A DNA stretch of 64,000 nucleotides from positions 1 to 64,000 of the forward strand of contig NZ_ML762921.1 of NCBI RefSeq assembly GCF_009372235.1, given 5' to 3'. Both the position numbers and the translations under genes were made by a program. The DNA comes from Dickeya oryzae. GTDB lineage: Bacteria; Pseudomonadota; Gammaproteobacteria; Enterobacterales; Enterobacteriaceae. The notes below the pieces were generated by a model that was not told the origin of the DNA, did not search any database, and saw only the letters and a list, made by a program, of their open reading frames with translations. Every line of letters starts with the position of its first letter. Position 1 is the stretch's first letter. Shown piece after piece: positions 22,955 through 46,641 of this stretch.

Positions 22955-24667
22955 ATGTGGCAGCGTCGCGCACTGGAACTCAATACCCAGGATATCTGGC
23001 ACTGGCAGCGGGTCATCACGTTGGTGGAATATGCCCGTCGTTACGGTTTCAATACGCTGGTGCTAGGCCAGGCGGACTTGCTGGATAAGCTGGTGACGCC
23101 CGTGGCTTATCAGTCAACCCGCTTTGACGATCGTATCAGCAGTCAACAGCGATCGCGCTGCGTCTACCTCAATCAGGTTGCCGCTTATTGTCGCGAACAA
23201 GGGGTAGCGTTATACCTGCAATGCAAAGAACTGACGTTCCCCACCGACTTGCTATTGCAGTATCCCCATTTACTGGACGATGCACGTCAGTTCCGCATTG
23301 ATACCCACTTCTGGTGTGATTATCTGGCTGCCAAAGTCGAACAACTGATGCAGCAAATTCCGCGATTACATGGGCTGATGCTGGCTATCTCCAACAGCGA
23401 CAGCCTGATACGTTTCGCTCCACCACCCGGTGAAGAGATACAACGCGGCGGCACAGTCCCCCCAGCCACAGACAGCGAACCGGTCTACCGGCAATTGTTC
23501 GCGGCCGTTGCCCGCGTTATCCACGCCCACCAGCGCCACCTGGTATTACGCGCCTTTCCGGCTAATCATCAGGATATGTCCCGTGTACTGGATGCTATCC
23601 GCAGCCTGCCGACTAGCGTATCCGCCGCCATCAAAATGACGCCGGAACGCTTCTGGCCGGAATTTCCCAATAATCCGGCACTGCTGGAACTGGGGGATCG
23701 GGAAGTCTGGGTGGAGTTGGATCTGGCTGGCGAAGAAGTCGGCTGGGGCAATTTACCGTTTTTGCGCTACACCGAAGTACAAGGGCGGTTGTTATGGTGT
23801 CGGGAGAAAAATCCGGCCATCGTCAGCGCAGCTTGTCGCATCAGTTGGGACGGCGTCGATAACCACAGCGTATTAGGCTCGCTGAGCGAGTTCACCCTGT
23901 TTGCTTGCGCGCACCTGCTAAATGACAACGCGCCACCGATGAACGAAAGCGACCTTTTTCGCCGCTGGCTGGCGGAATGCTGGCAATGGCAACCGGATGA
24001 TGAGGTTTGTCACACCATGCGAACCTTGCTGGAACAGGCACAACAGGCGCTGTCGTTATCGATGTACGCACGCCACCACGTGTTCCATCGCCATAGCCTG
24101 TTACCGTCCAGTTATGGTCAGGCGGTGTGGAGCCTGTACGGTCAGCTTAACCGCAATCACTGGCTCCCCGGTTCCGGACGCGATATCACCTTTGAACGTC
24201 AGGAACCGGAACTGGCCTCCCACAATCTGTACCAGATTGTGCGGGAGAAAGACACCGCCTGGCAGTTAGCCGAGCAAAGCCAACAGGCAGCCATGCAGTT
24301 TGTCCGTGACCACCATCTTCCTGAGCCGCTACGTCAGCGCTGGCTGCAAGAATGGCGAGGGCTGGCGCTCTATTGCCGGGCTTTCGTCCATGGACAGAAA
24401 GCCTTTTTCACGTTGCACTATTGCCAGCGTGTGGAAAATAACTGGACGCTACGTGAGATAGCCAAAACCAATATTCAGGCGCTTTATGGCGTAGCCCATG
24501 AAATGGATGATTTCAGCCTGCAACACCGGGATTACCCGGTCAGCATGCATGTCATGTTTGATGCTGATCGCCCACGCTCGCTGGCAGACAGTCTGCAACA
24601 GCAGTTGACTGCGCTCACGCAAGATATTGGTGGTCATCACCCGACAGCGCCACGTCATGAGGCGTAG
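22955..24667 (+). CDS. uncharacterised 570-residue protein, distantly alpha-glucuronidase-like
   Basis: Not firmly recognised. No signal peptide is visible, so it is probably cytoplasmic. The first 330 residues read like a TIM-barrel glycoside hydrolase: YARRYGFNTLVL, YCREQGVALYLQCKEL, QIPRLHGLMLAISNSDS, LVLRAFPANHQD, REVWVELDLAGEEVGWG and RISWDGVDNHSVLGSLSEF. These run in the same order as segments of GH67 alpha-glucuronidases, but no catalytic assignment is claimed. The C-terminal 200 residues are rich in Trp, His and Gln and helical in appearance. It starts at an ATG behind AGGGAG. It neighbours a TogB-like binding protein and a GH28, which suggests a role with uronic-acid oligosaccharides. 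It is convergent with the binding-protein gene, 17 bp apart. Confidence 0.8.
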   Translation: MWQRRALELNTQDIWHWQRVITLVEYARRYGFNTLVLGQADLLDKLVTPVAYQSTRFDDRISSQQRSRCVYLNQVAAYCREQGVALYLQCKELTFPTDLLLQYPHLLDDARQFRIDTHFWCDYLAAKVEQLMQQIPRLHGLMLAISNSDSLIRFAPPPGEEIQRGGTVPPATDSEPVYRQLFAAVARVIHAHQRHLVLRAFPANHQDMSRVLDAIRSLPTSVSAAIKMTPERFWPEFPNNPALLELGDREVWVELDLAGEEVGWGNLPFLRYTEVQGRLLWCREKNPAIVSAACRISWDGVDNHSVLGSLSEFTLFACAHLLNDNAPPMNESDLFRRWLAECWQWQPDDEVCHTMRTLLEQAQQALSLSMYARHHVFHRHSLLPSSYGQAVWSLYGQLNRNHWLPGSGRDITFERQEPELASHNLYQIVREKDTAWQLAEQSQQAAMQFVRDHHLPEPLRQRWLQEWRGLALYCRAFVHGQKAFFTLHYCQRVENNWTLREIAKTNIQALYGVAHEMDDFSLQHRDYPVSMHVMFDADRPRSLADSLQQQLTALTQDIGGHHPTAPRHEA

Positions 24668-24684: not shown

Positions 24685-25974
24685 TTAGCGGATCACGCGC
24701 TTGAGAATGCGATTACCGGCCTCGCTAAACGTTCTGGCGGAGACTTCCACGGTCTTGTTGCCGTAATCCAGTTGCTCGACCGTTTGCAGAATCAGGCTGG
24801 ACAGTTGCGGGTCTTCAATATATGAAGACACCGGGGTTTGCATCGGTTTTTCCAGTGCCTGCATCAACCCTTTCACCGCCAGATCCTGCGTGTCCAGCTT
24901 CTGGTTATCCTGTAGCGTCTGTCGTGCCACCCGGCTCAGCGGTACGCCGCGCTCGGTCCCCATCAGGAGGCTGCCTTCCGGTTCATTCATCAGGAAATTG
25001 AGCAACAGTGCCGCCTCTTTCGGGTGCCCGCTGTTTTTGCTGATGGCAAACAGCATGGAGGGCTTGAAGAACTGCCCCGGGTTATCCGAGCCGGGCGTCA
25101 TGATGTACGGCCCCAGTTCCAGTTTGGCGGGCGGTGCTAACGGTTCGGCGTATTTTTTCACCACCGAAGCCCACAGTTGCGCCCCGCCGTACTCACCGTT
25201 AATCCACGGACGGGTTTCAAATACTCCCGCCTTGCCAAAGGCGTTGTAGTACTTCGTCGATGGAATAACATGCTCATCCACCAACCGTTTATAGAAACGG
25301 AACGCTTCCAGCCACTGTGCGTCGGTGTAATTAAAGCGCTTGTTCTGCTCGTCAATCATGCCGATATTGAATTTCTGCGTCATATAGGTGTTGAGCAGTT
25401 CCAGCAGCCCTTCCCCGCTGTCTTGCGCCGGGGACGCTAATGGGAAGTAGTTATCACCGAGCTTTTCTTTGAACACTTTGCCAGCCTGAAACAGTTCTTC
25501 CCAGGTGGTGGGATACGCCAGACCGGCTTTTTTCCAGGTATCGACGTTGTAGTACATCACCAGCCCGTTCAGTGAGGTCGAAATAGCGTTCACCTTGCCA
25601 TCGACCGTCGTTAGCGCATCGGCGGGGAAATCCTGCAATTTCAGGGTATCTTTCAGTGTATTGAGGTCATAAAAGCCAGTACCAGTGCGGGAAAAAATCG
25701 GAATCCAGTTCCAGTTGATCTGCATAACGTCCGGCTCCTGACCACTGGCGATTTGCGTTGTCAGGCGTGAAAGATAGCCGTCCCAACCGGTATATTCTGC
25801 TTTAACGGTAATTCCCGGGTATTTCTTCTGGAATGCGTCAATCGCTGCCAGCGTAGCCTGATGACGGCTGTTTCCTCCCCACCAGGCCATGCGTAACGTC
25901 ACCTGTTCCGCAGCCTGAACCTGGCCCAGCAAGGTCAATGCCAACAGCAGTAATCCTGTCAGTAATCTCATCAT
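24685..25974 (-). CDS. TogB-like extracellular solute-binding protein (family 1)
   Basis: Periplasmic sugar-binding protein of an ABC importer. The 429-residue precursor has a Sec signal peptide of about 21 residues ending in AQA/VQA-A. A family 1 binding domain follows, with TLRMAWWGGNSRHQATLAAIDAFQKKYPGI and AEYTGWDGYLSRLTTQIASGQEPDVMQINWNW, closely resembling the oligogalacturonide-binding protein TogB of Dickeya. No permease or ATPase gene is adjacent, so it either shares another transporter such as TogMNA or is an orphan. It is divergent from the GH28 gene. Confidence 0.88.
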   Translation of the reverse strand: MMRLLTGLLLLALTLLGQVQAAEQVTLRMAWWGGNSRHQATLAAIDAFQKKYPGITVKAEYTGWDGYLSRLTTQIASGQEPDVMQINWNWIPIFSRTGTGFYDLNTLKDTLKLQDFPADALTTVDGKVNAISTSLNGLVMYYNVDTWKKAGLAYPTTWEELFQAGKVFKEKLGDNYFPLASPAQDSGEGLLELLNTYMTQKFNIGMIDEQNKRFNYTDAQWLEAFRFYKRLVDEHVIPSTKYYNAFGKAGVFETRPWINGEYGGAQLWASVVKKYAEPLAPPAKLELGPYIMTPGSDNPGQFFKPSMLFAISKNSGHPKEAALLLNFLMNEPEGSLLMGTERGVPLSRVARQTLQDNQKLDTQDLAVKGLMQALEKPMQTPVSSYIEDPQLSSLILQTVEQLDYGNKTVEVSARTFSEAGNRILKRVIR

Positions 25975-26508
25975 GTCCCCGATCCTCTTGGTGTTGTTAT
26001 TTTAGGGCGGAAGGGTAATCAGGCAGGTACAGAGCACCTCCCGCTGGCAAACAAGATAGGCAGATTGCTGTTGTCTTCACCAGTGCCGGGGGAGCCTCTG
26101 ATACGCGTTATGCGGGGCAGGCTGAAAAAATGCGTACCGTCGGCCCTGACAACATTCATTTCATGGACATGGATGCCTTCTTTATCGCACGGCACTCCTG
26201 CTACCTCACAGCCCATCGCCTGCAGTAAACATCTTGCGCGATCTGCTTCACACTTATTTAACAAAAACAAAACACACGCGGTTACTGATGCGGCAGGCCG
26301 ACATCGGAAGGGATTAAAGTGTGATGAAACACACATTACGCTCGGGCGGTGGCGGGTATGACGTTATCACGATCACATTCCGGCTGATGGCGTCAGACAG
26401 GCTGTGAAGGCGCTCTAACCTTCAATGATTTCCCGTCGCGCTACGGCTGCTGACGAGAAAAAGCCGTGCTGGAATAGCCCATCATCTGCCCGATACAGGA
26501 TCACCACC
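25975..26508. other. divergent intergenic region, binding protein / GH28
   Basis: About 534 bp without a supported gene; short frames of roughly 100 codons exist on both strands but lack homology or good starts. It must hold promoters for both divergent genes. The one recognisable element is a CRP-like site at 26320-26335. Confidence 0.5.
26320..26335. promoter_or_regulatory. CRP-like site upstream of the GH28 gene
   Basis: TGTGA-6-ACACA within AAAGTGTGATGAAACACACA matches 9 of the 10 core bases of the CRP consensus TGTGA-6-TCACA. It lies 174 bp before the GH28 ATG in the divergent region. Catabolite control of pectin genes by CRP is well known in Dickeya. Confidence 0.45.
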
Positions 26509-27843
26509 ATGACGCTATCTTTTCGTACCTATCAGCCCGCCGCCGATGGCACTACCCCGGATACCGCACGCTTCCAGCAAGCGCTCGACGACCTGGACGC
26601 ACAGGGCGGCGGCACGCTGGTGGTCGAGTCGGGACGTTATTTGCTAGGGGGCCTGCGGCTTCCTTCGAACTGTTGCCTGCAACTGGATGAAGGCGCGGAG
26701 CTTATCGCCAGCGCCTGTTATGACGATTTTGCCCACACCACGACGCTCAGCGTGGCAGAGCTTTCCGATCGTGCATTTTTGTATGCACGCCAGCAGCGCA
26801 ACATCACCTTGTGTGGAAAAGGAAAAATTACTGGCAGCGCCGATGCCTATTTTTCGGCACAGCCCGATGAGCAAGGCTATCGGTTACCCGCGCAGCATCG
26901 GCCGCGTATTGTGGTACTGGAGGACTGTGAGCAGATTACGATACAGGATATCACTATCGAACACGCGCCGATGTGGACCGTTCATCTGGTGAGTTGCCGT
27001 CAGGTCAACGTCGAACGCCTGACGGTGGATAACGACATGACGATGGCCAACACCGATGCGCTCAATCTCGACAGTTGCCAGGATGTCATCGTCCACGATT
27101 GCCACTTGAGCGCTGCCGATGACGCTTTGTGCATCAAAACCACGGCCAAGCCCCCTACCATGCAATATAAAGCACAGCGTATGACCGTCAGCCACTGCCG
27201 GTTACGCTCACGCAGCTGTGCACTAAAAATTGGTACCGAAACCTTTGCCGATATCGAAGACCTGAACGTCAGCCACTGCACTCTCTACGACTCCAACCGG
27301 GGGATCGGCCTTATTTCACGCGATGGCGGCGCGTTTCGTCGAATTTGTTTTAGTGATATCACGGTCGAATGCGTCACTGCACCGCCGTGTCATTGGGGGA
27401 AAGCAGACCCGATATTCATCTCGGTACGTTACCGCGATCCAACGATAGAACCGGGGGTTATTGAGCAGGTTCGCTTTGTGCGGATAACCGGTGTCAGTGA
27501 AGGGGCCATCAATCTGCACAGTACGCCAGCAGGTTATGTCCGCGATATTCATTTCGAGGACATAACAATGACGCAACAGCCGAGTGATAGTACGGAACAA
27601 GGTTTGTACGACGTTCGCCCGCCCTGTAACCCGGCCCGCCCCACCGGCATGGGACTGGATAACGCGTATCTGGTTAATCCCGATACCGGGCGCGCTTATG
27701 GCGTGGAGGCTTATCCGGGGGGAATGCCCGCGTTGTTTGCTCGCGGCATTAACGGGCTGACATTGCACAACATGACGCTACAACGCCCCTCCCCGTTGCC
27801 TGTCGGCTGGAACCACGATGCGATTATTGAACTGGCAGAGTAG
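26509..27843 (+). CDS. cytoplasmic glycoside hydrolase family 28 protein
   Basis: Parallel beta-helix hydrolase of the polygalacturonase family. The 444 residues start at an ATG at 26509 and show no signal peptide, so the enzyme should act on imported oligomers in the cytoplasm. GH28 catalytic motifs are partly present: NTD in MANTDALNLDSC and DD in AADDALCIK. The usual GHG is replaced by SCALKIGT and RIK by NRGIGLISRDGG, as in GH28 branches that do not cleave plain polygalacturonate. Repeated coils with I/V-x-HD/SHC are evident. An alternative start at 26425 would add 28 residues without a convincing signal. Substrate could be an (unsaturated) oligogalacturonide or a rhamnogalacturonide. Confidence 0.88.
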   Translation: MTLSFRTYQPAADGTTPDTARFQQALDDLDAQGGGTLVVESGRYLLGGLRLPSNCCLQLDEGAELIASACYDDFAHTTTLSVAELSDRAFLYARQQRNITLCGKGKITGSADAYFSAQPDEQGYRLPAQHRPRIVVLEDCEQITIQDITIEHAPMWTVHLVSCRQVNVERLTVDNDMTMANTDALNLDSCQDVIVHDCHLSAADDALCIKTTAKPPTMQYKAQRMTVSHCRLRSRSCALKIGTETFADIEDLNVSHCTLYDSNRGIGLISRDGGAFRRICFSDITVECVTAPPCHWGKADPIFISVRYRDPTIEPGVIEQVRFVRITGVSEGAINLHSTPAGYVRDIHFEDITMTQQPSDSTEQGLYDVRPPCNPARPTGMGLDNAYLVNPDTGRAYGVEAYPGGMPALFARGINGLTLHNMTLQRPSPLPVGWNHDAIIELAE

Positions 27844-30454: not shown

Positions 30455-31594
30455 TTACAGATAAACGCGCAAGTACTCTGACAGACACAAAATCGCCATC
30501 GCTTGACCATAGGGCATGGAGGTCAGCGGAATCTGGCGATAGTAATCCAGATCTTTCCCCATCGCCGTCCCGAAGGATACGTTGAGCAGCTCGCCGCTCT
30601 CGCTGATATTCGCCAGTACGCCACGCATCGCCTTTTCCGCCACCTCGGCGTAGCGACGGTCAATGTAGCGTTTGCGTACCGCTTTCAAGATGCCATAGGC
30701 AAACCCGGCGGTCGCGGAGCTTTCCAGATAAGAATTAGGGTCATCGAGCAGGGTATGCCACAGACCGCTATCATCCTGATACTTCGCCAGAGCATCGACC
30801 TGACTTTCCAGCACCTGAATCAGAAAACGGCGGGTGGCGTTACCTTCGGGCAAATCCAGCAACTCGATAAATTCAGGAATAACGATGGTCAACCAACTGT
30901 TGCCGCGAGCCCAACGCGCCTGGGCAAAACTGTGGTTGCCGTCAAACGTCCAACCGTGGAACCACAAGCCACTTTGACGATCCATCAGGTACTGCACATG
31001 CAGCAGGAACTGGTAGGTCGCTTCCTCCACAAATTCAGGACGATTAAGCAACTTGCCGATCTTCGCCAGCGGCAACACGCTCATCATCAGGGTATCATCC
31101 CACAGTTGATCGGTGTTTTCGCTGTTATAGACGATATGTTGCAACCCGTTCTTGTGGGTACGCGGCATATCGTACATCACCCATTCTGCCCAGCGTTCAA
31201 GATACGGCACCCAACGACTGTCGCCGGTTTCTTCATAACGGTAGGCCAGCGTCAAAAACGGGCATACTGTGTTGACGTTTTTGGTCGGCGTCCCCTCTTC
31301 CAGTCGGGCGGTAAACCAGTCATCGATGATAGCGCGCATCCGCTCATCGCCGGTCTGGAGATAATACTGGTAGATGCCATACAGCCCGATGCCGTGCGTC
31401 CATTCCCAACCAGCCCACCCTTTGGTGTCGATAACCCGGCCGTCATCCAGACGTAGCAGGAATTCACCGGTTTTATCTTCGATATTGACAAGATTGTCGG
31501 TCACCCGACAAATCAATGCCTTTAACTCGTCCCGTGAGATAACGTATTCGGGCTGGCGCAGCAGCGCACTATGCTTTACAGGAAAAATGGTCAT
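30455..31594 (-). CDS. rhiN: unsaturated rhamnogalacturonyl hydrolase (GH105)
   Basis: Removes the unsaturated galacturonyl end from rhamnogalacturonate oligomers produced by rhamnogalacturonate lyases, in the cytoplasm. The 379-residue protein is an (alpha/alpha)6 barrel with GH105 segments WAGWEWTHGIGLYGIYQYY, YNSENTDQLWDDTLMMSVLPLAKIG, GLWFHGWTFDGNHSFAQARWARGNSW and SATAGFAYGILKAV. Conserved aspartates lie in the WDDTLMM and DGNHSFA regions. No signal peptide. It follows rhiT by 93 bp, matching the rhiTN operon described in Dickeya dadantii, which RhaS activates in response to rhamnose. Confidence 0.93.
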   Translation of the reverse strand: MTIFPVKHSALLRQPEYVISRDELKALICRVTDNLVNIEDKTGEFLLRLDDGRVIDTKGWAGWEWTHGIGLYGIYQYYLQTGDERMRAIIDDWFTARLEEGTPTKNVNTVCPFLTLAYRYEETGDSRWVPYLERWAEWVMYDMPRTHKNGLQHIVYNSENTDQLWDDTLMMSVLPLAKIGKLLNRPEFVEEATYQFLLHVQYLMDRQSGLWFHGWTFDGNHSFAQARWARGNSWLTIVIPEFIELLDLPEGNATRRFLIQVLESQVDALAKYQDDSGLWHTLLDDPNSYLESSATAGFAYGILKAVRKRYIDRRYAEVAEKAMRGVLANISESGELLNVSFGTAMGKDLDYYRQIPLTSMPYGQAMAILCLSEYLRVYL

Positions 31595-31687: not shown

Positions 31688-33268
31688 TCAATGGACGCCG
31701 TGGTGAGGCGTTCCACGGGCTATCGACCGGGCTGGCGCTTTATGGCGATTGAGGTAACCAATGTTGTTGTTCCCCCACAGCGACTCATAAGGCATACCCG
31801 CCAGCATCTCCACTGTCTCACGCGCTTCGGGCGTAATTTTTTCCGGTACGATACGGCCAGCGTCGCGCATTTTCGCCGTTTCCTGCCGCAAGACTTCATG
31901 GGTTTGCAGATTCAGTTTAAAGCGCAAGGACACTAGAAAACCCAATGCCAGTACGGCGACAGTCCCAAAGCACAGCACCGTCAGAATGGTGTGGCTGACG
32001 CCCGGTGCCTGCACACTCTGGCCAGAAACAAAGCCGGATAGTTGTAGAACGATCCCCACCAGCATCACCGCACCCGCCTGAGAGGCTTTACGGGTCAAAG
32101 TCATAATCCCGGCAAAGATCCCTTCACGACGTTGTGCAGTGATCACCTCGTCCACATCCGCAATGTAGGTATAGGTATTCCATGGCACATAGTTGATACC
32201 GCCACGTCCCAAACCAGCCAGGCCAGATACCAACAACAACAGCGAAAACGCCGAATGCATCCCGCTGTAATACAGGAAGCCATACGAGAGTGCGCTCACA
32301 CCAAACAGGCATACCACCATGCGGTAAGACGGTGCCGGACCAAATTTGATGCACAACGGGATCATCGCGATCACCGCGATAAATTGCAGGATAGCCATCG
32401 TCCCCATCAGGTTTGACGCCACCGTCGGGCTTTGCATCAACACGAACACCACGTAATACGTGAACACCGCATTAAATACGTCCTGCGCGATATAACCGCC
32501 CAGATACATCCCTAAATGCTGGCGGAAAATGCGAATACGCAGCGTCGACAGCAGTTCAATATTGAGGCGCTTGAGGCTCTGTCCGAGCGTCAGTGACTGA
32601 CGTTCTTTTTCCGCCCGTAATGAGGCTTCAGACATCTGGTCGCGTGACCGCTCCCAGGTAAACAGATACACCAATGTCAGTACACACGCGCAAATGACTG
32701 AGAACACCAGACTGGCGTAGAAAAAAGACACCGCGTTATCTTTGCCGAAATGCCCCAGCAGAATGCCCGGCAAAAACGCGGCCAGAATGGCCGACAACTG
32801 TGCCAGTGCGATACGCGCGCCGGAAAACTTGGTTTTTTGTTTAAAGTCATCCGTCATTTCCGGCACCAGCGTTTCATACGGCACCAGTACCATGGTGTAA
32901 ATAACGTCAAACAGCAGGTAGGTTAGCAGGTAATACCAGTAATCCATGTGGCCGACCCACATCAGGCTGTAGCTGAAGACACAAGGAATACCAAGCAGAA
33001 TAAAGAACTTGCGACGCCCAAAGCGCTTACCCAACCAGGTCGAACCGAAGTTATCGGTCAGGAAGCCCATCAATGGGCTGACGACGGCATCCAGCACCCT
33101 GGCCATAGCAAAAATAAAGGTCGCCTCAATCGGCGTCAGACCGCAAAACGTGGTGTAAAAATAGAGCAACCAACCAGCGGTGAGCGCCGTGGTACCGGCC
33201 CCGAGAAAATCGCCGGAACCGTAGGCCAGATAATTCGCCAGCCCAATCTTACGTGTTTTCATCGCCAT
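31688..33268 (-). CDS. rhiT: rhamnogalacturonate transporter RhiT (GPH family)
   Basis: Inner-membrane cation symporter that imports rhamnogalacturonate oligomers. The 526-residue protein has about twelve transmembrane segments and family features of glycoside-pentoside-hexuronide symporters: MGFLTDNFGSTWLGKRFGRRKFFILLGIP near the N-terminus and ARVLDAVVSPLMG. The C-terminal tail is cytoplasmic and long. The start follows the strong ribosome site AGGAAGG. First gene of rhiTN, downstream of a 509-bp region carrying a KdgR-like box. Confidence 0.92.
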   Translation of the reverse strand: MAMKTRKIGLANYLAYGSGDFLGAGTTALTAGWLLYFYTTFCGLTPIEATFIFAMARVLDAVVSPLMGFLTDNFGSTWLGKRFGRRKFFILLGIPCVFSYSLMWVGHMDYWYYLLTYLLFDVIYTMVLVPYETLVPEMTDDFKQKTKFSGARIALAQLSAILAAFLPGILLGHFGKDNAVSFFYASLVFSVICACVLTLVYLFTWERSRDQMSEASLRAEKERQSLTLGQSLKRLNIELLSTLRIRIFRQHLGMYLGGYIAQDVFNAVFTYYVVFVLMQSPTVASNLMGTMAILQFIAVIAMIPLCIKFGPAPSYRMVVCLFGVSALSYGFLYYSGMHSAFSLLLLVSGLAGLGRGGINYVPWNTYTYIADVDEVITAQRREGIFAGIMTLTRKASQAGAVMLVGIVLQLSGFVSGQSVQAPGVSHTILTVLCFGTVAVLALGFLVSLRFKLNLQTHEVLRQETAKMRDAGRIVPEKITPEARETVEMLAGMPYESLWGNNNIGYLNRHKAPARSIARGTPHHGVH

Positions 33269-45682: not shown

Positions 45683-46567
45683 CTACCGAGTGACTTCCAC
45701 TTTCGCCAGCTTCTCATAATAACGAGCCAGCGCACTGTGATCGGCACCGCCCAGATCATCGGCTTTCAGCGCCTGCATCATTTCCATTACGGCTGCGGTC
45801 AGCGGCAATTGCGCCCCAACGCCGTGAGAGGTATCCAGTGCGTTCGCCAAATCCTTGATATGCAGATCGATGCGGAAACCGGGTTTGAAGTTACGGTCCA
45901 TCACCATCGGCGCTTTGGCATCCAACACGGTACTGCCCGCCAGACCACCACGAATCGCCTGATACACCAGGTCTGGATTAACACCCGCTTTGGTTGCCAG
46001 CACCAGTGCTTCAGACATGGCCGCGATATTCAGCGCCACAATGACCTGATTCGCCAGCTTGGTGACGTTACCAGCACCGATATCACCGGTATGCACCACT
46101 GAACCAGCCATCGCCTTCATCACGTCGTAGCAACGTTCAAACACCGCTTTATCACCGCCCACCATGACGGACAGCGTACCGTCGATCGCTTTCGGCTCAC
46201 CGCCACTGACCGGTGCGTCCAGCATATCGACGCCTTTTTCCGCCAGGGCTGTGGCAATTTCACGGCTGGCCAACGGCGCGATAGAACTCATGTCGATAAT
46301 GACAGCACCTTTGCGTGCGCCTTCAATCACACCGTTTTCACCTAGCACCACCTCTTTCACGTGAGGAGAGTTCGGCAGCATGGTAACGATGATATCGCTC
46401 TGCTCGGCGATAGCTTTCGGCGTTGCCGCCGCGCTGGCACCCGCGGCGGTGACTTCGGCAACAGCTTCACTATTTCTGTCCAGCACTACCAATGAATAAC
46501 CCGCTTTAATCAGGTTTTTGCTCATCGGTTTGCCCATGATACCCAGTCCAATAAAACCAATTTTCAT
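45683..46567 (-). CDS. garR: 2-hydroxy-3-oxopropionate (tartronate semialdehyde) reductase
   Basis: Reduces tartronate semialdehyde from the aldolase reaction to D-glycerate with NAD(P)H. The 294-residue protein has the dinucleotide-binding GFIGLGIMGKPMSKNL, the substrate signature DAPVSGGEPKAIDGTL and the catalytic lysine in GNVTKLANQVIVALN. The ATG at 46567 starts MKIGFIG and is preferred over one seven codons upstream. It lies 74 bp after garL. Confidence 0.95.
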   Translation of the reverse strand: MKIGFIGLGIMGKPMSKNLIKAGYSLVVLDRNSEAVAEVTAAGASAAATPKAIAEQSDIIVTMLPNSPHVKEVVLGENGVIEGARKGAVIIDMSSIAPLASREIATALAEKGVDMLDAPVSGGEPKAIDGTLSVMVGGDKAVFERCYDVMKAMAGSVVHTGDIGAGNVTKLANQVIVALNIAAMSEALVLATKAGVNPDLVYQAIRGGLAGSTVLDAKAPMVMDRNFKPGFRIDLHIKDLANALDTSHGVGAQLPLTAAVMEMMQALKADDLGGADHSALARYYEKLAKVEVTR

Positions 46568-46641
46568 TGCGATAACCTCGTTGTCCATTCAGTGACATGG
46601 TCAGATATGTTGACGGCCGATGCGGCCCTGATTAATCCGAA

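Follow-up and report, generated by a model that had tools for sequence, protein, structure and literature searches.

The described systems closest to the gene studied here are the glycosidase families GH67, GH138 and GH20 and the cytoplasmic pectin enzymes of GH28 and GH105. In GH67, a GH67N domain precedes the barrel; we take E292 to be the general acid, D365 and E393 to be the base candidates, and R325 and K360 to bind the carboxylate. GH20 carries an Asp-Glu catalytic pair on strand 4. GH138 is represented by BP0997, of which BT0997 presumably is a GH138 relative. According to PMC7939467, BT0997 is an α-galacturonidase acting on an α-1,2-GalA linkage, and the Bacteroides RG-II enzymes were produced recombinantly without N-terminal signal peptides, which argues that those enzymes are exported. 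PMC6831795 describes that, in Serratia oryzae and Dickeya, TogMNAB and TogT take up short oligogalacturonides, which are then cleaved in the cytoplasm.

The gene analyzed here lies in a stretch of 64,000 nucleotides from Dickeya oryzae (contig NZ_ML762921.1, positions 1 to 64,000), which as a whole is referred to as the window. The gene and its domains are the following:

22955..24667, + strand: the complete gene for a 570-aa protein of an orphan family with kinship to GH67/GH138 (from ORF, model and profile comparison)
22955..23941, + strand: TIM-barrel domain, residues 1-329 (AlphaFold2 secondary structure; the boundary is our own reading)
23942..24634, + strand: C-terminal helical domain, residues 330-560 (AlphaFold2 model)

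The ORF opens with an ATG at 22955, ends with a stop at 24667 and is free of internal stops; the opposite strand of 22955-24667 holds many stops in the register read. The start is conserved, since all 41 loci of the window protein's own branch among the best 80 of 86 loci match from query residue 1, and dN/dS against five orthologues is 0.062-0.082. This is an intact, selected gene.

An earlier note, made from the DNA letters alone, had quoted the segments GFNTLVL, QIPRLHGLML, VWVELDLAGE and ISWDGVDNH, which are indeed present in that order and start at residues 31, 134, 251 and 296. Its description of the tail as rich in Trp and His holds for His (6.1% in residues 330-560 versus 3.0% in the first 329) and only slightly for Trp (3.9% versus 2.7%). 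It had also seen no signal peptide, in agreement with our finding that a hydrophobic signal-like stretch is absent (best 15-residue hydropathy within the first 40 residues, 0.31).

Two KdgR operator patterns gave no KdgR-like site upstream of the gene, and scans for sigma-70 promoters and terminators were not richer than shuffles. A near-palindromic KdgR-box-like site with 3 mismatches to the pattern lies at 46549-46569, distant from the gene.

Predicted fold and structural relatives

The earlier note could not assign the protein to a characterized family, and the libraries searched give it no name either. Pfam returned nothing at E ≤ 1, NCBIfam a single chance match (E 0.16), and PDB sequence searches no meaningful match, be it with the protein itself or with a 29-member profile. 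The 29 relatives hit scattered chance families only in Pfam. Within the openly accessible papers to which our literature search was limited, we noticed no description of the protein. It represents a family, as yet undescribed, of probable glycosidases from soft-rot and related bacteria, whose build resembles that of enzymes trimming acidic sugars off plant cell walls, with a rearranged active site.

The AlphaFold2 model, built from the window protein and 57 relatives, has a mean pLDDT of 87.6 and a pTM of 0.87. It shows a TIM barrel of eight strands (residues 4-9, 34-39, 85-92, 140-145, 195-199, 223-227, 251-256, and 289-295) and then a helical domain, and is uncertain in the loop after D149, where residues 158-171 fall below pLDDT 50. 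Thus, the barrel expected for a GH67-like protein is present in the predicted structure.

In Foldseek, the top match is GH138 (6hzg, E 2.4e-13, TMq 0.63), next comes GH67 (1mqr, E 6.9e-12, TMq 0.55; other GH67 chains are weaker), and GH20 and GH84 chains stand below GH67 with weaker E-values. VIA-align yields Z 20.9 for GH138 (502 residues, rmsd 4.4), a match that reaches model residues 1-559 of 570, and Z 19.9 over 424 residues for GH67 (aligned range 424-450). For GH20, Z is up to 19.4, over approximately 285 residues or over 419-436 residues at an rmsd of 5.7-6.0 Å. The ranking by Z is not decisive, because differences under 1 are ties; judged from the model, the length of the alignments at similar rmsd speaks for GH138 and GH67, and GH138 fits at least as well as GH67, over more residues (502 versus 424-450). 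The best matches are therefore two uronidase families rather than an unrelated family. A shared fold alone shows no function.

Like the protein studied here, GH138 belongs to a pectic uronide setting, and BP0997 is the best structural match, covering almost all of the protein, its C-terminal domain included. However, identity to BP0997 is only about 11%, BP0997 chains have 694-860 residues versus 570, and the Bacteroides RG-II enzymes are, as argued above, exported, whereas our protein has no signal-like N-terminus. The match to GH20 β-hexosaminidases (GH20C type) likewise extends from the barrel into the C-terminal part, although with weaker Foldseek matches and a larger rmsd over the same length.

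Family branches and homology to GH67

We scanned one genome per species and used the best 80 of 86 loci. Among these, FOC1, the branch of the window protein, comprises 41 loci at 50-87% identity and FOC2 38 loci at 22-27% identity. FOC3 consists of an outlying locus (L105, titled Lachnospiraceae MAG) and a gene on plasmid pPHB2 of Pelagibacterium halotolerans, 46% identical. Pairwise hhalign gives 100% for every pair of branches and, on these profiles, the three clearly are one family. FOC1 and FOC2 occur together in some genomes, e.g., Kluyvera georgiana and Buttiauxella sp. A111.

The gene occurs in many Enterobacterales, among them Dickeya, Pectobacterium, and Brenneria. Of nine Dickeya genomes, six carry it and three lack it. 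In a sample of 198 genomes of the taxonomic family, 27 hold a relative from any branch; a class-wide sample gave 1 of 274 (the own genome), and a phylum-wide sample 5 of 398, all five in the same family. Viral contigs held no relative; a plasmid search gave two, one of them on an alphaproteobacterial plasmid. A sample of 289 alphaproteobacterial genomes, queried with the FOC3 protein, gave none, an empty result that carries no weight in the absence of a positive control; one alphaproteobacterial plasmid does carry a member. On pPHB2 (NC_016079; L144, 3-1592) this member is unannotated, spans the start of the 4-kb record and adjoins a GH43 gene. Copies split into several ORFs were observed at six loci (L089, L103, L107, L131, L134, and L141), symbionts among them, and in a Klebsiella aerogenes record (L143, 12001-13660) the copy consists of two adjacent CDS.

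Alignment A2 (58 rows) combines the window protein with relatives from 57 of the 80 loci. The 23 loci left out are the six broken copies just listed and 17 that are mostly near duplicates. Residue counts refer to A2 plus the Pelagibacterium piece, i.e., 59 sequences (29 FOC1, 28 FOC2, and 2 FOC3); a separate 29-row alignment, A1, stands outside these counts. Neighbour counts cover all 80 loci.

When the 58-row alignment is compared with a reference set of seven GH67 proteins taken from genomes, hhalign reports 96.1% (E 2.9e-9 for the single comparison) over 374 columns in one register, in support of the GH67-like reading of the earlier note. By branch, the values are 83.5% for FOC1, 57.5% for FOC3 and 0.2% for FOC2, and 96.6% for all branches. 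Hence, FOC2 taken alone does not support the link and is tied to GH67 through its homology with FOC1 and FOC3. As controls, ten families encoded in these neighbourhoods, including two barrels (isomerase-like and GH2), reach 0.1-2.2%. A relationship of the GH28, GH105, GH2, SBP or isomerase type was rejected (hhalign at most 1.8%); GH28 and GH105 share the gene clusters and are probable partners, but without profile similarity they are neighbours only. Searched with a 30-member HMM, 177,635 PDB sequences yielded seven matches at E ≤ 10, four of which are GH67 chains (E 0.54-0.89 over 43 residues only) in the same register as alignment A5, described below; on their own, these matches are weak. 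The GH138 entries 6hze-6hzg came up in none of three PDB sequence searches with profiles.

By profile comparison, the protein is homologous to GH67, with which it shares a TIM barrel plus a helical C-terminal domain, yet it is not a GH67 member. Membership fails because the Pfam match, the N-terminal domain and the E292 acid are all missing. Pfam Glyco_hydro_67M matches none of 29 members at E ≤ 5, and a family search of 38 genomes, including the own genome, gave 0 matches. The protein begins at barrel strand 1, and the structural alignment enters GH67 at residue 141 or 151. The GH67-fold reading of the earlier note is supported and holds in outline: we see an undescribed family of three branches beside GH67 and GH138, the latter compared by structure.

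Gene neighbourhoods

Four genes near the family gene bear on its context:

24685..25974, - strand: periplasmic binding protein, the second TogB-like one of this genome; N-terminus signal-like; best PDB match 2uvg-2uvj, E ~1e-146
26425..27843, + strand: GH28 without a signal-like N-terminus; start more likely at 26509 (our own reading)
30455..31594, - strand: GH105/GH88-type hydrolase (Pfam PF07470)
31688..33268, - strand: sugar transporter (PF13347), adjoining the GH105-type gene

The entries 2uvg to 2uvj are presumably the Yersinia oligogalacturonide-binding protein TogB. Both neighbours named in the earlier note, a TogB-like binding protein and a cytoplasmic GH28, stand up to inspection. The binding protein in the window is 57% identical to one in a cluster of the own genome with the order pectate lyase, permease, permease, ATPase, binding protein, KdgM. 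The GH105-type protein passes the NCBIfam cut-off for the β-galactosidase BglB (506.8 versus 420); instead of an unsaturated uronide, the pathway may thus have a galactoside as its substrate.

Neighbours were counted with phmmer at E ≤ 1e-15 in fetched stretches of up to 8 kb on each side. Among the best 80 of 86 loci, all 41 of FOC1 carry GH105 (33) and/or GH28 (18), and further FOC1 neighbours are a binding protein (12/41), a PF13347-type transporter (7/41), a PTS permease (6/41), and the protein c24 (23/41). The own genome (4.59 Mb) has three GH105/88 and two GH28 genes, from which we estimate that approximately 1% of random stretches of this size would hold each and 2% either. The chromosomal surroundings are of at least three kinds. 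In Dickeya, Pectobacterium, and Brenneria the gene lies between cysJ and queD/queE (labels by sequence appearance); it stands next to ppk in Buttiauxella, Pluralibacter, and some Klebsiella (named in the Klebsiella record, elsewhere by sequence appearance), and in other settings in Kluyvera, Citrobacter, Enterobacter, and others. The proposal of an intracellular enzyme for uronic-acid oligosaccharides, as the earlier note had it, fits this context.

FOC2 neighbours, again among the best 80 of 86 loci, are a Gfo/Idh/MocA oxidoreductase (31/38), a binding protein (26/38), an oligogalacturonate lyase (10/38), an isomerase-like barrel protein (10/38), and GH2 (2/38). The FOC3 gene of L105 follows an apparent binding protein and two permease-like ORFs, of which the binding protein alone was matched. 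In Serratia oryzae (L109, 9560-14162) and a Pluralibacter MAG (L110, 7791-12422), FOC2 copies adjoin a β-glucuronidase-like GH2; further neighbours at both loci are a transporter of the sugar-acid type and a protein (about 374 residues) that has no match in Pfam.

The protein c24 adjoins the family gene in its 23 FOC1 loci (e.g., L085, 9894-12362; best 80 of 86). It has about 800 residues in 12 loci and shorter or split ORFs in 11, and has no match in Pfam or NCBIfam. Its model hints at a beta-sandwich, a helical and another beta-sandwich part, but confidence is low (pLDDT 59.3) and the fold matches were therefore not used.

Candidate active site and possible functions

GH67 numbering was fixed by comparing wild type 1gqi with 1h41, entitled E292A. 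Alignment A5 places GH67 E292 at S148, with D149 adjacent, D365 at R232, K288 at A144, R325 at R199, K360 at K227, and E393 at E260. The positions under discussion are the following:

23228..23230, + strand: E92, where barrel strand 3 ends; 29/29 FOC1 and 2/2 FOC3 have E
23399..23401, + strand: D149, candidate general acid beside the GH67 E292 column; D in 29/29 FOC1
23549..23551, + strand: R199, aligned with GH67 R325; R in 59/59
23633..23635, + strand: K227, aligned with GH67 K360; K in 59/59
23648..23650, + strand: R232, column of GH67 D365; R in 29/29 FOC1
23714..23722, + strand: E254 and D256, strand 7; D or E at 254 and D at 256 in 59/59
23732..23734, + strand: E260, candidate base, aligned with GH67 E393; E in 29/29 FOC1

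The earlier note had called the fold degenerate with respect to GH67, and this is borne out in part. The equivalents of E292 and D365 are not kept, whereas those of R325 and K360 are kept in 59 of 59 aligned sequences and that of E393 in all 29 aligned FOC1 sequences. One of the two base candidates is thus retained in FOC1, and E254 shares its column with the residue that is mutated in the GH67 entry 1mqr. Strand 4 is followed by SNSD. Since E292 is replaced by S148 and D365 by R232, the acid would have to be the shifted D149 or another residue. As far as the alignment tells, FOC1 keeps the supposed uronate clamp, one base candidate and a possible acid one residue along.

The other branches differ at these positions, and the three appear to keep different catalytic carboxylates. 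Position 149 is E in both FOC3 sequences and empty in 28/28 of FOC2; position 232 is D in both FOC3 sequences and in 24/28 of FOC2 (G in four); position 260 is Q in both FOC3 sequences and I, T, L or P in 28/28 of FOC2, none acidic. In place of E92, all 28 FOC2 sequences have an E one column before. L054, a FOC2 relative in alignment A1 and outside the 59, has Cys for R199. The loss of the strand-4 loop and of the acid at position 260 was observed in all 28 aligned sequences of FOC2, the branch of L104, L106-L108, L111-L129, and other loci. With both carboxylates lost and an oxidoreductase as partner, FOC2 is the strangest part of the family. As it has neither candidate and reaches only 0.2% alone with GH67, the chemistry may differ across the family.

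We put the odds somewhat above even (about 0.55) that the protein works in the cytoplasm as a glycosidase on short pectic oligosaccharides with a uronic acid, most probably as an exo-acting α-D-galacturonidase. A cytoplasmic α-uronidase is the simplest explanation because the fold is nearest to GH138 and GH67, the N-terminus is not signal-like, the supposed clamp is kept and the neighbours are pectin genes. We infer its residue roles, substrate and direction of attack, and with them galacturonate specificity, linkage and acid/base roles, as follows. The PF13347 transporter, the TogB-like binding protein or both would bring in oligomers, a pool on which the products of the neighbouring GH28 and GH105 genes would work too. 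The substrate would be saturated, galacturonate-capped oligomers, perhaps GalA-α-1,2-Rha, whose carboxylate R199 and K227 may hold in the barrel; D149 would be the proton donor and E260 the base or nucleophile, aided by the conserved E254/D256 pair on strand 7. Weighing against this reading are the replacement of E292 and D365, the divergent FOC2 branch with the Cys of L054, the uncertain loop behind D149, the BglB score of the GH105-type protein, the missing KdgR-like site and the three Dickeya genomes that lack the gene.

The loss of the GH67 acid E292 and base D365, and a FOC2 branch without acid loop and without an acidic residue at 260, would also suit a non-catalytic descendant that binds uronic oligosaccharides in the cytoplasm as a sensor or scaffold and cuts nothing. 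We regard this as unlikely, given that D149, D/E at 254, D256, E260, E261, and E92 are present in all 29 aligned FOC1 sequences, that dN/dS is 0.06-0.08, and that the GH138 match to model residues 1-559 of 570 leaves no extra effector domain. The profile link and the retained equivalents of R325, K360, and E393 speak for a strict GH67 α-glucuronidase that removes (4-O-methyl)glucuronic acid from xylan-type oligosaccharides; but K288 is replaced by alanine, Glyco_hydro_67M misses all 29 members at E ≤ 5, and the identified neighbours are pectin-type genes (xylan genes were not sought as such), which makes such an enzyme quite improbable. Least credible in our view is a different exo-glycosidase from the barrel superfamily at large, one that resembles GH20 or GH84 and takes a non-uronate substrate. 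The GH20 Z of up to 19.4 is near that of GH67, and GH84 chains do appear lower in the Foldseek list, yet E-values are weaker for both, the GH20 alignments are either shorter (~285 residues) or of higher rmsd than those of GH67, and the conserved R199 and K227 and the pectin context point elsewhere.

Two further readings start from FOC2. In one, unsaturated or 3-oxidized uronides would be cleaved by elimination together with partner enzymes, not by acid/base hydrolysis. The loss of both GH67-type carboxylates in FOC2, the Gfo/Idh/MocA gene in 31/38 of its loci and the isomerase-like barrel protein and oligogalacturonate lyase in 10/38 (all among the best 80 of 86) are in line with this; for FOC1, however, no Gfo/Idh gene was found in 41 loci at E ≤ 1e-15 (best 80 of 86) and the carboxylates are kept, so we have little faith in elimination. 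The other, which we rate as unlikely, proposes a new glycosidase family whose three branches carry out different chemistry on one uronate-binding barrel. FOC3 would keep a GH67-like acid and base, FOC1 would use a shifted Asp acid and the other base, and FOC2, having dropped both, would cut uronides by an oxidation-assisted route with the NAD-type Gfo/Idh oxidoreductase. If this were true, a single family would present a natural series that starts with hydrolysis and ends with redox-assisted cleavage.

Soft-rot bacteria serve as models of pectin consumption, and yet this gene has no name in the family libraries searched. If the protein is a cytoplasmic α-uronidase, as we favour, it would add an extra step to the known route of uptake and degradation of pectic oligomers and would be the founding member of a new glycosidase family. 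Its three branches, with their different acid/base sets, would provide a test of how a uronate-binding barrel changes mechanism.
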